From a virus: 44,503 bases of DNA. Position 1 is the first letter of the stretch. Each line of letters begins with the position of its first letter. The position numbers and the translations under genes were made by a program. A model generated the notes under the pieces. The model was not told the DNA's origin and ran no database searches. It saw only the letters and a program-made list of their open reading frames with translations. Shown here piece after piece: positions 2,008 through 11,836 of this stretch. Where the stretch lies: the IMG/VR virus record IMGVR_UViG_3300033153_001846, positions 1-44,503 of that record. One strand, 5' to 3'.

Positions 2008-2020
2008 CTAAGTAGTTTAA

Positions 2021-2050
2021 GCAGTCGAGACACTAAACCGTCCCGACTGC
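2021..2050 (+). promoter_or_regulatory. Strong stem-loop in the leader upstream of the 2104 gene
   Basis: GCAGTCGAGAC (2021-2031) pairs with GTCCCGACTGC (2040-2050) around an 8-base loop, 11 pairs with one A-C mismatch. It is GC-rich compared with its surroundings and ends 53 bases before the ATG at 2104. No T run follows, so it looks more like a protein-binding or mRNA-stabilising element than a terminator. Confidence 0.5.
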
Positions 2051-2103
2051 TTAGCCTACGAGCTAACAATCAAAAAGTCCCAAGAGGCAACTAAGGAGAC
2101 ACA

Positions 2104-4131: not shown

Positions 4132-4220
4132 GGTGGCTAGGAGTAGTACTTGCATTTATATTTGCTATATTAGTTTATGGTTTTGCCATTATAGGTATAG
4201 CCCGAACATTTATTATATAA
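4128..4220 (+). CDS. Membrane microprotein, 30 aa
   Basis: This 30-residue frame has a single transmembrane helix (VVLAFIFAILVYGFAIIGIA) flanked by Arg-Trp and Arg. It begins within the ATGA stop of the 35-residue microprotein, so the two are translationally coupled and may form a two-part membrane complex. It is the second of a pair of tiny membrane proteins; no family is recognised. Confidence 0.5.
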   Translation: MRWLGVVLAFIFAILVYGFAIIGIARTFII

Positions 4221-4537: not shown

Positions 4538-4741
4538 ATGACACTCTCAGAACTAAGTAATCTTACACAGTCGCACCACAATGGATACTATGAGCTTTTA
4601 CTAACTCATTCAGCCCTTATTATTAGGGAGGTAGCGATAGGGTCTAAAAACTCAGTCTCGAAAGCCTTACATATACACCCTACACAATTTAAAGGTATAT
4701 TCGGTTGTATAGTAGCACATGATAATATAAAGGCACTCTAA
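4538..4741 (+). CDS. Small protein with helix-turn-helix-like segment, 67 aa
   Basis: The C-terminal half (SVSKALHIHPTQFKGIFGCI, about 39-58) has the spacing of a helix-turn-helix. The N-terminal part is a hydrophobic helix pair. It is first in the replication operon and its TAA overlaps the next ATG by one base. It may be a regulator of the operon, perhaps acting at the palindrome 4486-4497. Confidence in the motif is low. Confidence 0.45.
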   Translation: MTLSELSNLTQSHHNGYYELLLTHSALIIREVAIGSKNSVSKALHIHPTQFKGIFGCIVAHDNIKAL

Positions 4742-7044
4742 TGACCCCTATACAAAGTATACAGCCTTTTATAGACTTAGAGCTACATACTATACCTCTT
4801 AATGGAAAGCACATCAAGAGAGACAGTAAAGGTAAAAAACACGGGTTTTCTATGCCTTCTAATTGGCAAGAACAGTATTCAAAACATCTTAATGAGTTAG
4901 CTACTCCTCTAGGTGGTCTTATAACTGGTAAGGATGGTCTAGTAGCTATAGATTGCGATGACAAGAAGACTTATGACCTATTCCGTCAATTAGACTCAGC
5001 TAACACAGCCTACTTTAACTCTATAGGGAAACTAGATAAGAAGGGTAATCTACTAGAGTGTGGTACTATATTATATAAACATGATGATAGTTTACCTATA
5101 TCTTTTAGAACTAATAATGGATATGACCTAGACTATTATAACGGAAGTGGGTTTGTATTTCTACCTACAGTACATAATGAAACTAAGACAGTGTGGCTAG
5201 AGAATGATAACAAACTATATAATCAAGATGGACTAGAGGTTATATTTCACTCTATGCCCTCTACAGTTAAAGACCTATTAGAGTTACTACACGTTAGACC
5301 TGAGCCAGCTAAGACAATAGCTACGACTACTACCTCACTATCTAGTAGAGGTTTTCTAGCTAAGGCATTAGTCGGAGTAGACTTTAAAGAGTATAATCCT
5401 TTAGTTACTAAGATATTAACTCCTAAAGAGTATAGGTCGGCTAAGTATGTTAAGCAAGGACATTTACACCCTAATGATATTCAAGGAAGTGGACATATGT
5501 ACCTATTTAAGATAGCTTGTATATTAGCTGGAGATAACACAGTAGATAAGGATTTGTTTAGAGATATAATGGACTATCTTAATCAACTATGGGATGAGCC
5601 TATGTCAGATAAACTTCTAGAGAAGACTATTATAGCTCCTATAATTAGTGGGCGTTCTATTAATCAGACTACTGGAGACCCTTATTGGACATATGACGAG
5701 AATTGGGAGACTGTAGCTGGCTGGAGTGTAATAGATAAAATGGATGGGTATCTATGGGATATATTCTATGACCCTTTTAAATCTCAATATTTCTTATATA
5801 ATACAATTACAGAACGTATAGAGCAAAGAGACGATGAGAGCAGACTTATTAAGCATATTAGAGCCTCTACTATAGGTAAATTTAATCAAGCAGAGGTTAT
5901 TCAAGAAATGAATAATTTATTAACTATAGTAGAACCATCTCAAGACTTTGGCTATCTAAATGATGATATGAATTTTAACTTATTTAAACCTACAGAGTCT
6001 CTTAAGGTTCTACATGACCCTGAGGCATATGCAGATAGTTATAAAATACCTACAGAGTTTATAGACTATATGGAGCATTTTATACCTAGTGAGCAACAGC
6101 GTAATTACTTATTATCTCTAATTAGAACTAAATTGACTACATTTAATTATAGTCCAGTAGTTCCTTATATAATAGGAGTTCAAGGTAGTGGTAAAAATAC
6201 TCTAATTAGTGTTATAGCTAATATGCTAGGGCATCAATATGTAGTACCTGATGTAACTGGTTCACAGTTCATAGAGAAGTATAATGACTGGATGGTAGAT
6301 AAATACGTAGTACATTTAAATGAAATGGCTGAGACACTACCTACAGCTAAGGAACGTAAAGAAGCTCAAGGTAAGCTAAAGACTTACACTGGTTCTACTA
6401 TAATGCAAGTAAGAGCTATGAGAACTGGATATGTACAAACTGAAATGAGAGCTATGTTTATTATGACAGCTAACTCTAGTCCACTTACTATAGAGGATAA
6501 GGATAGAAGGTTATATTATATTAGTACACCTAATGTGTTTGATTTCAGTCCTCAATGTCAAGCGTCTAGTCCTACAGCTATATATAATGCTATTATGAGA
6601 CAGACTAAAGATATAGCATATTATCTAGCTACAGAGATAGAGAACCTAAGTGATATGGACTATATTAGAGCACCTGAACACGAAGGTAAAAATAGTATGA
6701 TATTTCTTAGTCTTAATACCTCTAATAAAATTGGATGGGCATTAGCTAATGGAGAGTTTGATTTACTAGTAGACTTCCTTATTAATCCAGACCCTTTATT
6801 TGAAGATAAAGAGAGTGGACGTGTTACTTTAGCTAGCCTAGTTAAAGTCTATGAGGAGCAGAGTAAAACAGATGATGCAGAGCATACTATGTCAACTATA
6901 ATGAAGCAGGTAGGTCTAGACCAAAAGAGAGGCAGTGCTAACGCTAAATATTATATAATAGATGGACTAGCTGATTATAATTATAAAATGCCTATATCAG
7001 ATGATGAGGCTGAAACTATACCACTAGAGGAGGTAAGAACATGA
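4741..7044 (+). CDS. Primase-polymerase / SF3 (D5-like) replicative helicase, 767 aa
   Basis: This is a bifunctional replication initiator and helicase. The N-terminal ~180 residues fit a PrimPol (archaeo-eukaryotic primase) domain, with VAIDCDD giving the acidic D71/D73 pair and a glycine-containing GSGFVFLP segment near 135-142. The C-terminal part is a superfamily 3 helicase: Walker A GVQGSGKNT (479-487), Walker B VVHLNEMAE (about 523-531), motif C FIMTANS (573-579) and a probable arginine finger at R589/R590. Such fusions prime and unwind DNA at phage forks, where T7 uses gp4. It overlaps its neighbours by 1 and 4 bp. The length and domain order are normal for the family. It likely pairs with the family A polymerase at 11826. 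Confidence 0.88.
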   Translation: MTPIQSIQPFIDLELHTIPLNGKHIKRDSKGKKHGFSMPSNWQEQYSKHLNELATPLGGLITGKDGLVAIDCDDKKTYDLFRQLDSANTAYFNSIGKLDKKGNLLECGTILYKHDDSLPISFRTNNGYDLDYYNGSGFVFLPTVHNETKTVWLENDNKLYNQDGLEVIFHSMPSTVKDLLELLHVRPEPAKTIATTTTSLSSRGFLAKALVGVDFKEYNPLVTKILTPKEYRSAKYVKQGHLHPNDIQGSGHMYLFKIACILAGDNTVDKDLFRDIMDYLNQLWDEPMSDKLLEKTIIAPIISGRSINQTTGDPYWTYDENWETVAGWSVIDKMDGYLWDIFYDPFKSQYFLYNTITERIEQRDDESRLIKHIRASTIGKFNQAEVIQEMNNLLTIVEPSQDFGYLNDDMNFNLFKPTESLKVLHDPEAYADSYKIPTEFIDYMEHFIPSEQQRNYLLSLIRTKLTTFNYSPVVPYIIGVQGSGKNTLISVIANMLGHQYVVPDVTGSQFIEKYNDWMVDKYVVHLNEMAETLPTAKERKEAQGKLKTYTGSTIMQVRAMRTGYVQTEMRAMFIMTANSSPLTIEDKDRRLYYISTPNVFDFSPQCQASSPTAIYNAIMRQTKDIAYYLATEIENLSDMDYIRAPEHEGKNSMIFLSLNTSNKIGWALANGEFDLLVDFLINPDPLFEDKESGRVTLASLVKVYEEQSKTDDAEHTMSTIMKQVGLDQKRGSANAKYYIIDGLADYNYKMPISDDEAETIPLEEVRT

Positions 7045-9637: not shown

Positions 9638-10276
9638 ATGGCATACCCAAAAGAAAAATTTACGACTCCTAAAGGTAACTTAAAGTGGGCATTTGTAGAT
9701 GGTCTAGGTAAAGAGACCAAAAAGAATAGTGGAGAGTATAAGTACTCAGTAGTAATTAAGGCACATGAAGACCTACAAGAGGTTAAAGATGCTATAGCTA
9801 CTATTGACCAATTCTGGAAAGATAATAAGCCTAAACAAGCTAAACCACGTCCTAAAACTGCGGCATATAAATATGAGGAAGATGAAGAGACTGGAGAGCG
9901 TACTGGGTTTGTATACTTTGGTATGAGTACAGTTACTAAATTCCCTAGTAACGATGCCAAAGTAGTTAAAATTTTTACGGCTAAAGCACCAGTTAGAGAA
10001 GTATCTCTAGGAGGTAAAAAGATTGGTGAAGACTCTTTAGGTAGAGGTATTGGTACATTAGCTATCTATGAATATGAAGGTTCATTCGGTACTACATTGT
10101 ATCTTGATGCACTTAGCCTATCTAAGTTCGTAGAGTATGTAGGTGGTGTAGACGTTAATGATGTAGAGACAGATGATGATGCAGAAGATATTGGTTTAGA
10201 TGAAACAGTAGTAGGTACTGATGCAGTAGCTACTGGTGGAGCTGAGCAAGACGATACTAATGTACCGAGAACGTAA
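9638..10276 (+). CDS. Single-stranded DNA-binding protein, T7 gp2.5/DUF2815-like, 212 aa
   Basis: The start (FTTPKGNLKWAFVDGLG) and the alternating strand pattern up to residue ~165 match the OB-fold SSB family found in T7-like and many other phages. The last ~45 residues are strongly acidic (DVETDDDAEDIGLDE), the tail that contacts polymerase and helicase in this family. It coats single-stranded DNA at the fork and promotes annealing. It has its own promoter (9528), and AAGGAACAGAACA precedes the ATG, consistent with high expression. Its codon use is richer in preferred codons than its neighbours. Confidence 0.8.
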   Translation: MAYPKEKFTTPKGNLKWAFVDGLGKETKKNSGEYKYSVVIKAHEDLQEVKDAIATIDQFWKDNKPKQAKPRPKTAAYKYEEDEETGERTGFVYFGMSTVTKFPSNDAKVVKIFTAKAPVREVSLGGKKIGEDSLGRGIGTLAIYEYEGSFGTTLYLDALSLSKFVEYVGGVDVNDVETDDDAEDIGLDETVVGTDAVATGGAEQDDTNVPRT

Positions 10277-10557
10277 TGTTTGTAGCTAATCTTAAAAACG
10301 CTATAGACTCTAATGAAGGTAAAATTCCATTATGGTTCACAGAACAACATCTTAACAGTGCTAAAGTAACACATGCTCAAGTTACACCTAATACAAGAGT
10401 ATGTGTAATTACATTAACTACTGGACATGACCTAGTAGGTTATGCTCAAGTACTAGATGCTGAGAATGATGTAGAACTTGTAGGTCAAGAGATAGCATAT
10501 AACAATGCTAAAGAAGAGATATGGAGAGTGTTTGGCTCTATTGGAAAAGTTATATAA
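10276..10557 (+). CDS. Gp49-like phage protein, 93 aa
   Basis: The segment NTRVCVITLTTGHDLVGYA, followed by VELVGQEIAYNNAKEEIW, matches the pattern of the Phage_gp49_66 family (a short TVC..LTL.nG...G motif, then a dEIG..A...A...iW motif). Its function is not established. It overlaps the SSB gene by one base and is the last gene before the structured non-coding region at 10558. Confidence 0.65.
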   Translation: MFVANLKNAIDSNEGKIPLWFTEQHLNSAKVTHAQVTPNTRVCVITLTTGHDLVGYAQVLDAENDVELVGQEIAYNNAKEEIWRVFGSIGKVI

Positions 10558-10563
10558 ATAGCT

Positions 10564-10589
10564 AGAAGACTGATTAAACCCAGTCTTCT
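10564..10589 (+). terminator. First hairpin after the Gp49-like gene
   Basis: Nine perfect base pairs (AGAAGACTG with CAGTCTTCT) lie around an 8-base loop, 6 bases after the stop codon. The following ATGGTGTTTATTC is only partly T-rich, so it may end some transcripts or protect the 3' end of the SSB message while letting others continue into the hairpin cascade. Confidence 0.45.
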
Positions 10590-10860
10590 ATGGTGTTTAT
10601 TCACCCTCTATCAGGATATGCCGATTGGGTTCGGGCAATAGAGAGACTAGTTTATTCACTAGTCTACAAATTAAAGGAGTCACTACCTTATAATAGTGGC
10701 GTACTTTGTTTTAAAAAATATCAAATATGTTGGCTGATAGGAAAGACTATCAAACCCAAGAGCTAGAGACATACTAGGTATGTCCATGTAAGGCTAGCTC
10801 TATTATATTGTCATGGTGGTTAGAGATTTTTTACTTCCTCCCTTTACTCTAGCCACTATG

Positions 10861-10875
10861 AGAGTATAATACTCT
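10861..10875 (+). promoter_or_regulatory. Promoter -10 inside a perfect palindrome
   Basis: AGAGTATAATACTCT is a perfect 15-bp palindrome with TATAAT at 10865-10870, only 17 bases before the ATG at 10888. A -35-like TTTACT is at 10843-10848. Transcription from it would give a very short leader. The palindrome could be bound by a repressor. Confidence 0.5.
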
Positions 10876-10887
10876 GAAAGGTACAAA

Positions 10888-11403
10888 ATGACACCACAGA
10901 AACTTGCAGAATTGAGACAACAGACAGAAAAAGCTTTAGAGAAAAAACTACAGCTTAACCATATAGCTAACGATAGAGGCTTAACTGATATATCTTATTA
11001 TGATAAGAGACTATTAAACCTTAAAGGTAAAAAGGTAAGTATTTTAGCAACTGAGACAGATATACTAACTAAACTACAAGAAGTATTAACTAAACATAAA
11101 CTAAATAAAGGTATAGGTCTTCATATTACTATGAATGGATATACTACACCAATAGGTAGAGCAGATTATTTTGATAGGTTAGAGTTTTCTATTAGATGGT
11201 ATGTAGTTAAACATGAAGTATCTATCCATCTAGTTAGTGAGTTGACTAAGAAAGCTTTGACTAATATAGTTAGACCTAAAAATTGGAAAGATAATAACTA
11301 TAGTGAATTTATATTAGATTGTAGTTTAATGACTTTATTTAAAGAAGGTACAATAACTATGGATGAAGTTATACTGAAAAGTAATGAGGATTGTGAATTA
11401 TGA
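10888..11403 (+). CDS. Hypothetical protein, 171 aa
   Basis: I do not recognise this family. It begins with a charged helix (PQKLAELRQQTEKALEKKLQL), then has an alpha/beta body including a strand-rich middle (GIGLHITMNGYTTPIG, then FSIRWYVVKHEVSIHLV). There is no membrane segment. It is the first gene after the hairpin region, with its own palindromic promoter. GAAAGG lies 6 bases before the ATG. It overlaps the next gene by 4 bp. Confidence 0.65.
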   Translation: MTPQKLAELRQQTEKALEKKLQLNHIANDRGLTDISYYDKRLLNLKGKKVSILATETDILTKLQEVLTKHKLNKGIGLHITMNGYTTPIGRADYFDRLEFSIRWYVVKHEVSIHLVSELTKKALTNIVRPKNWKDNNYSEFILDCSLMTLFKEGTITMDEVILKSNEDCEL

Positions 11404-11594
11404 CAGTAGAATACTTAGTTAAGAGTAATGATGGAGGGTATATAGATAAACACTATGAGTCTTTTGTAGTTAAACAAGAGGCTAGTAAGTTTAAGAGCTT
11501 AAAAGAGATAGAAGACTATTTCAAAGAAGTGTCATATCTAGGGTATGAAGAGACCTTTACAATAGAGTTAATTATAGGAGTATATTCATGTTAG
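11400..11594 (+). CDS. Hypothetical protein, 64 aa
   Basis: A small soluble protein with an alternating strand-helix pattern (TVEYLVKSNDGG, then a Lys/Glu-rich helix, then TFTIELIIGVYS). It starts in an ATGA overlap with the upstream gene and overlaps the following gene by 7 bp. Unknown family. Confidence 0.6.
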   Translation: MTVEYLVKSNDGGYIDKHYESFVVKQEASKFKSLKEIEDYFKEVSYLGYEETFTIELIIGVYSC

Positions 11595-11836
11595 AAGTAT
11601 TGGAAGCATATCATAAGACTAAAATGAAAGTTATAGAGAAAGATATAGAGATAAAAAAGCTAGAGAAGCAACTATATGATTCTAATAAAGCTTTAGAAGA
11701 TACATATAAGAAAGAGGATTTAGCCACTTTATTTAGTATATATACAGACTCTATATTCATTAAAGACTCTAATACACTATTAGCATGGTTTAAAGGTACA
11801 ATACCTTTTCCTAAGGATACATCTAATGATAGTTAA
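11588..11836 (+). CDS. Small coiled-coil protein, 82 aa
   Basis: Residues 1-45 are a continuous charged helix with heptad-like Leu/Ile spacing (KVIEKDIEIKKLEKQLYDSN). The rest is a short alpha/beta tail. It overlaps the DNA polymerase gene by 11 bp, so the two are translated together and it may be a polymerase accessory factor, though no motif shows this. Confidence 0.6.
   Translation: MLEVLEAYHKTKMKVIEKDIEIKKLEKQLYDSNKALEDTYKKEDLATLFSIYTDSIFIKDSNTLLAWFKGTIPFPKDTSNDS

Follow-up and report, generated by a model that had tools for sequence, protein, structure and literature searches.

Why does a phage genome hold, close behind its SSB gene, 330 nt without a gene that fold into a row of hairpins, and does this structure act as DNA, as a free RNA or as part of a message? 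The locus belongs to an uncultured podovirus, and the window, by which we mean the whole stretch of DNA analysed (44,503 nt; 35% GC), is IMG/VR virus record IMGVR_UViG_3300033153_001846, positions 1-44,503. Replication genes occupy its + strand (a primase/polymerase-family protein, a Dda-like helicase, a Gp2.5-like SSB, a family-A DNA polymerase, an exonuclease, a helicase, and a ligase), and the structural genes lie mostly on the - strand. No phage RNA polymerase was found among the proteins scanned, and the genome is therefore probably transcribed by the host polymerase. By SSB and portal, the closest named relatives are Vibrio phage VPMS1, Pseudoalteromonas phage PH1, Dickeya phage Amaethon, and Edwardsiella KF-1-like phages, i.e. 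VPMS1/KF-1-like podoviruses. Three nearer relatives from IMG/VR have polymerases ~67-72% identical (G001, L001/L005; G002, L002; G003, L004), and we refer to these three and the window as the clade.

The spacer, its hairpins and its neighbours

The spacer and its surroundings hold the following features:

9638-10276, + strand: SSB gene (Gp2.5-like; PHROG 112, E 7.6e-12), 58-69% identical to relatives
10276-10557, + strand: Gp49-like gene between SSB and spacer (PF13876, E 1.3e-8)
10563-10590, + strand: hairpin 1, 10 bp perfect, 8-nt loop
~10592-10605, + strand: hairpin 2, 4 bp, with GTTTATTCAC in its loop, common to hairpin 4
~10606-10643, + strand: hairpin 3, compound, about 6 bp plus an inner arm
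10644-10665, + strand: hairpin 4, 8 bp perfect
10679-10700, + strand: hairpin 5, 7 bp, then a weak T-rich stretch
10730-10759, + strand: hairpin 6, degenerate copy of the clade motif; outer helix UUGG/CCAA, inner helix UGAUAG/CUAUCA
10760-10800, + strand: hairpin 7, 7-8 bp with a nested 7-bp hairpin
10801-10871, + strand: hairpin 8, 24 bp (9 bp, 1x1 mismatch, 15 bp, 21-nt loop), a candidate RNase III-type duplex
10843-10870, + strand: promoter-like site TTTACT-16-TATAAT with a palindromic -10 region, ahead of gene 10888 (consensus match only)
10877-10881, + strand: accessible Shine-Dalgarno AAAGG of gene 10888
10888-11403, + strand: next gene, 171 aa, function not known

As a preliminary description of this DNA had stated, the spacer at 10558-10887 is free of genes, its sole ORF being one of 58 aa (10590-10766) without a Shine-Dalgarno sequence by eye, and it is flanked by a Gp49-like gene. 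Eight stem-loops tile the gap. The + strand folds with -109.1 kcal/mol (z -6.29) and the - strand with -95.5 kcal/mol (z -4.86), and no dinucleotide shuffle out of 100 matched the value of its strand; 20 control stretches of 330 nt ranged from z +0.8 to -4.0. The proposal that these inverted repeats are tiled beyond chance is thus upheld. In a genome-wide scan of the + strand in segments of 120 nt, 10801-10920 ranks first of ~740 (z -5.1), and 10801-10871 is the longest + strand hairpin of the genome with at most one mismatch. Two of the stems first described needed correction: the perfect stem at 10563-10590 is there but has 10 bp rather than 9, and the 14 pairs with two G-U (10812-10825 with 10847-10860) are real but form part of the longer 24-bp helix of hairpin 8.

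The gene that follows at 10888 had no relatives found in viral contigs. Its Shine-Dalgarno sequence is more open than with shuffled upstream sequence; sequestration of this ribosome-binding site, hinted at by the minimum-energy fold, was rejected because about half of the Shine-Dalgarno is unpaired whatever 5' end is chosen. The Gp49-like gene is absent between SSB and spacer in G001, G002, and G003. Compared with G002, where the spacer sits directly between SSB and polymerase, the window has this extra gene upstream and three small genes (10888-11836) downstream.

Two other + strand gaps are strongly structured (1879-2103, z -5.7; 2722-2889, z -4.1) and flank an early gene at 2104-2721, whose homologues in G001-G003 have structured gaps on both sides too; searches of viral contigs, GTDB genomes, and the phage collection gave no further relatives of this gene. 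Repeats were noted as well. About five Fur-box-like dyads (GTTGATAATGACTATnATAATCAAC and relatives) lie at 606-898, in the large early region without coding sequence, with two exact matches to TTGATAATGAYTATNATNATCAA (G001 has two 3-mismatch copies). A perfect 16-nt inverted repeat (TTTATCACTTTTATCA / TGATAAAAGTGATAAA) occupies 1045-1060 and 1117-1132, with more CACTTTTATCA copies near 1348-1371. A 22-nt direct repeat, AAGCTTCA(A/T)TTAGCTATACTGT, is found at 1888-1909 and 1986-2007; these copies are possibly tandem promoters with -10 TATACT and hairpins after each, and TTTAGCTATACT of this region is present at the same place in G002.

Conservation of position in related phages

Among the relatives, the gap from SSB to the next gene measures 79-157 nt and has no shared sequence outside the motif described below; the stem sequences of the spacer are not conserved, and hairpins 1-5 have no sequence homologue among these phages. 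Fold z scores of the post-SSB gap are -2.9 (G001), -6.0 (G002), and -4.9 (G003) within the clade, and -7.4 (VPMS1), -3.0 (Amaethon), -3.2 (Manatee Spring phage L018), -2.4 (PH1), and -2.1 (ZHX) in other phages, while the gap of L019 was not structured when its fold was compared with shuffles. Ranked within each genome for the longest hairpin, the gap comes first in the window and VPMS1 and second in G002 and G003, with longest duplexes of 24, 25, 21, and 21 bp, respectively; it also contains the most structured stretch of VPMS1 (z -11). These four phages have an intercistronic duplex long enough for about two helical turns, which is absent from G001, whose post-SSB hairpin is short (11-13 bp), and from PH1, Amaethon, and ZHX. 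Because the gap stands out in the window, G002, G003, and VPMS1 and is unremarkable against the rest of the genome in PH1, Amaethon, and ZHX, the hairpin spacer after SSB is a clade feature that VPMS1 has too, and no rule for the whole group. What is kept is its location, after SSB and ahead of the next gene's ribosome-binding site, and this looks like a cis-acting mRNA element.

Throughout the clade (four of four genomes), the + strand gives the more stable fold (+/- strand: -109/-96, -23/-15, -57/-51, and -60/-51 kcal/mol) and is richer in G-U pairs, a bias not seen in the other phages compared. This favours, though not strongly, a clade spacer that acts as RNA on the coding strand. The preliminary description had argued for selection on RNA and not on DNA dyads; the structure is selected, and the better + strand fold, the additional G-U pairs, and two-sided changes in the motif make RNA the probable level, but the support is not strong. 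Were the spacer instead a DNA element, whose dyads or single-strand hairpins served to start replication or to bind a protein, its location among replication genes and the good fold of the - strand (z -4.9) would be accounted for, yet the advantage of the + strand throughout the clade would not, and we give this explanation very little credence. A replication origin at the spacer was rejected, as cumulative GC skew turns at ~20.4 and 40.7 kb and has no turn here. The spacer is a real RNA structure under selection, in an ordinary setting.

Other features near these sites were noted in passing. Several -10 boxes lie inside short palindromes (GAGTATAATACTC at window 10862-10874; TTGAGTTATAATAATACTCAA and GTGTTATAATAACAC at L001 ~4903-4923 and L002 ~4141-4155), which are perhaps operators of a phage regulator. 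Right after the SSB stop codon, L004 has a possible H-type pseudoknot (4544-4577; CAGGU/ACCUG with ACAGCU/AGCUGU), and the layout at L002 ~4854-4886 is similar.

A recurring RNA motif in the clade

A short RNA motif occurs in G001, G002, and G003 at two homologous sites, one immediately ahead of the early gene and one immediately behind SSB, and all four clade members have it twice per genome, the post-SSB copy of the window being degenerate. Its core consists of an outer helix of 3-4 bp, a 1x1 mismatch (A.C or U.C), UUUGA paired with UCAGA, an inner stem whose length varies (about 5-18 bp), and, slightly further along, GCUGA, as in the early copy of G003 (AACGAUUUGAUUAG..CUAAUCAGACCGUUAGGCUGA) and the post-SSB copy of G002 (UUAGAUUUGAUAGG..CCUAUCAGACCUAAGAGCUGA). 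The early copy of the window is the following:

2012-2066, + strand: GUAG-U-UUUAAGCAGUC..GACUGCUUAG-C-CUAC..GCUAA, 6 nt past TATACT and upstream of gene 2104-2721

In the window, G002, and G003, the early copy begins 5-6 nt past the -10 hexamer (TATACT or TATCAT), which would place it at about +1 of the predicted transcript. The post-SSB copy of the window is hairpin 6, whose 3' side (CTATCAAACCCAAGAGCT) is similar to CTATCAGACCTAAGAGCT of G002, and which is near-palindromic and may be read on either strand. A covariance model built from G001-G003 only, and run without filters on the first 12 kb of the window, returned as its two best matches the two predicted places: 10721-10759 (- strand, 15.2 bits) and 2012-2066 (+ strand, 8.9 bits); the + reading of hairpin 6 (10730-10767) came fourth, with a lower score of 7.4 bits. 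The respective E-values of 0.03, 1.3, and 3.4 are weak alone, and what matters is the agreement with predicted positions; when the window was searched in full and with filters, a match inside a coding region scored equally high.

MAFFT and RNAalifold misaligned the full motif copies and gave no useful structure, so that a hand-trimmed alignment was used, built with this structure in mind and with inner stems cut to four pairs. In this alignment, which with seven copies from four genomes is small, 86% of cells pair and 8 of 12 pairs show two-sided changes; two-sided changes were also seen with six copies, leaving out the window. The covariation score was reached by none of 500 shuffles and was lost when the partners were slid. 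The long-stem fold with the mismatch in the same place is the minimum-energy fold in five of the seven copies, an alternative fold being marginally better for two early copies, those of G002 and G001. Compensatory changes in homologues, which the preliminary description had looked to for a decision, are thus found in the conserved motif, and only there; the window's own post-SSB copy is degenerate, and hairpins 1-5 have no sequence homologue. In all copies, the downstream GCUGA can also pair with UCAG in a second, exclusive hairpin; its one two-sided change (UUAG/CUAA, in the window) was equalled in 66 of 500 shuffles, which leaves this alternative hairpin unproven.

A structure-only scanner proved unspecific (730 chance matches when the four genomes were shuffled five times) and was set aside. 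Scanning IMG/VR for GATTTGA-TCAGACC-GCTGA gave 23 stretches; those among them that resemble the motif come from the clade itself, and this exact-pattern scan found no intact intergenic hairpin form outside the clade. The motif is an undescribed, clade-specific RNA element.

The put RNA of phage HK022 suppresses termination via the zinc-binding domain of the RNA polymerase beta' subunit. A similar role here would have the motif, as nascent RNA, bind the host RNA polymerase and let it read through terminators downstream, its copies serving the early transcript and the SSB/polymerase region. HK022 has two ~70-nt two-stem putRNAs behind PL and PR (PMC9378689), and the clade resembles it in having two similar copies per genome, one just past the early promoter, and in that a long and a short hairpin are possible. 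However, the likeness is not in sequence as far as shown, the stem is very variable in length, the predicted fold mostly prefers one long stem over two hairpins, and the second copy, degenerate in the window, lies after SSB without a promoter of its own. We find such an antiterminator very doubtful. It also appears quite unlikely that the motif represents a cis-acting phage RNA of a new class which modifies host RNA polymerase in this manner or switches between two exclusive hairpins, the tile after SSB being part of this control.

The spacer as a probable part of the SSB message

No + strand promoter-like site scoring at least 9 of 12 was found from the SSB start to the spacer, and no U-tract terminator lies behind any strong stem of the spacer, which therefore most simply belongs to the SSB mRNA. 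Searches of Rfam at gathering and E-value thresholds returned only chance matches of miRNA/lncRNA type, and ARAGORN found no tRNA or tmRNA. The preliminary description had proposed a stable small RNA, a decoy for RNases or regulators, or a packaging RNA. The strong fold would suit such a product, and one processed from the SSB mRNA could accumulate, but the spacer has neither a promoter nor a U-tract terminator of its own, nor an Rfam family, hairpins 1-5 are not conserved in sequence, and the conserved trait is the place ahead of the next ribosome-binding site. A free RNA of this kind has no specific support, and we regard it as highly improbable.

The main alternative is transcriptional, namely that the tile consists of weak terminators or pause hairpins that attenuate read-through from SSB, and that a fresh promoter at 10843-10870 serves the downstream genes. 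The palindromic promoter reported beside the spacer exists as a sequence, with GAGTATAATACTC (10862-10874) as the -10 region of TTTACT-16-TATAAT; it is the sole + strand promoter-like site nearby, and it sits inside the last hairpin, immediately ahead of gene 10888 and directed at it. In addition, the spacer has two weak AT-rich terminator-like candidates (10563-10590 and 10679-10700), and the post-SSB gap of Edwardsiella phage ZHX has two GC-rich hairpins and then TTTT. Yet terminator-like and promoter-like matches are no more frequent than in shuffles, and although the hairpins stand at an operon boundary as intrinsic terminators do, no U-tract follows the strong stems of the window, G002, G003 or VPMS1. 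We judge this explanation unlikely.

Our preferred reading, to which we give about an even chance, is that the spacer is a cis-acting boundary element of a polycistronic mRNA, in which an RNase III-type site and protective hairpins split the SSB mRNA from the downstream operon. The SSB(-gp49) message, presumably transcribed as a single unit, would run on into the tile of stem-loops. RNase III of the host, or a nuclease like it, would cut the 21-25 bp hairpin ahead of the next ribosome-binding site, which would thus mark the mRNA boundary. Hairpins remaining after the SSB cistron would then block 3'-to-5' exonucleases, and small hairpins fit such shielding of the SSB message from 3' decay. The SSB message would thus have a stability of its own, separate from that of the replication operon downstream, and the ribosome-binding site of this operon would stay free. 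Demand for SSB would presumably be high; codon usage of the SSB gene equals that of the capsid gene (0.723), as against 0.663 for the polymerase. At the start (~+1) of the early transcript, the second copy of the clade motif would form a 5' hairpin protecting the message there.

RNase III has little sequence preference, and a long stem is therefore compatible with cleavage and not diagnostic of it. In T7, RNase III processes the early mRNA at five sites between cistrons (PMC4858673), and the 21-25 bp duplexes between SSB and the next gene would fit processing of this type. The T7 sites (R1.1 and others) are likewise long hairpins with imperfect pairing, placed between the cistrons of a polycistronic early mRNA that the host polymerase makes (PMC4858673), but the window belongs to another phage group and has several hairpins in a row, with cleavage as a candidate event, and the clade has conserved motif bases at the stem foot. 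A plain RNase III site or barrier hairpin does not explain these bases (UUUGA/UCAG and GCUGA). Also against a boundary element are the G001 hairpin of only 11-13 bp and the lack of anything outstanding after SSB in PH1, Amaethon, and ZHX. Emory et al. reportedly described, in 1992, 5'-terminal stem-loops able to stabilise mRNA in E. coli (cited in PMC3997798). The early motif copy, starting at about the predicted +1, would resemble stem-loops of this ompA/papA type, whereas the post-SSB copy lies within the message and could form a 5' end only after processing.

For VPMS1/KF-1-like podoviruses, these observations make testable the question of how SSB, which is abundant, and DNA polymerase, which is scarce, are set in proportion. 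An RNA boundary kept in position after SSB and an RNA motif present in two copies are candidate processing or antitermination signals that protein-based annotation misses.
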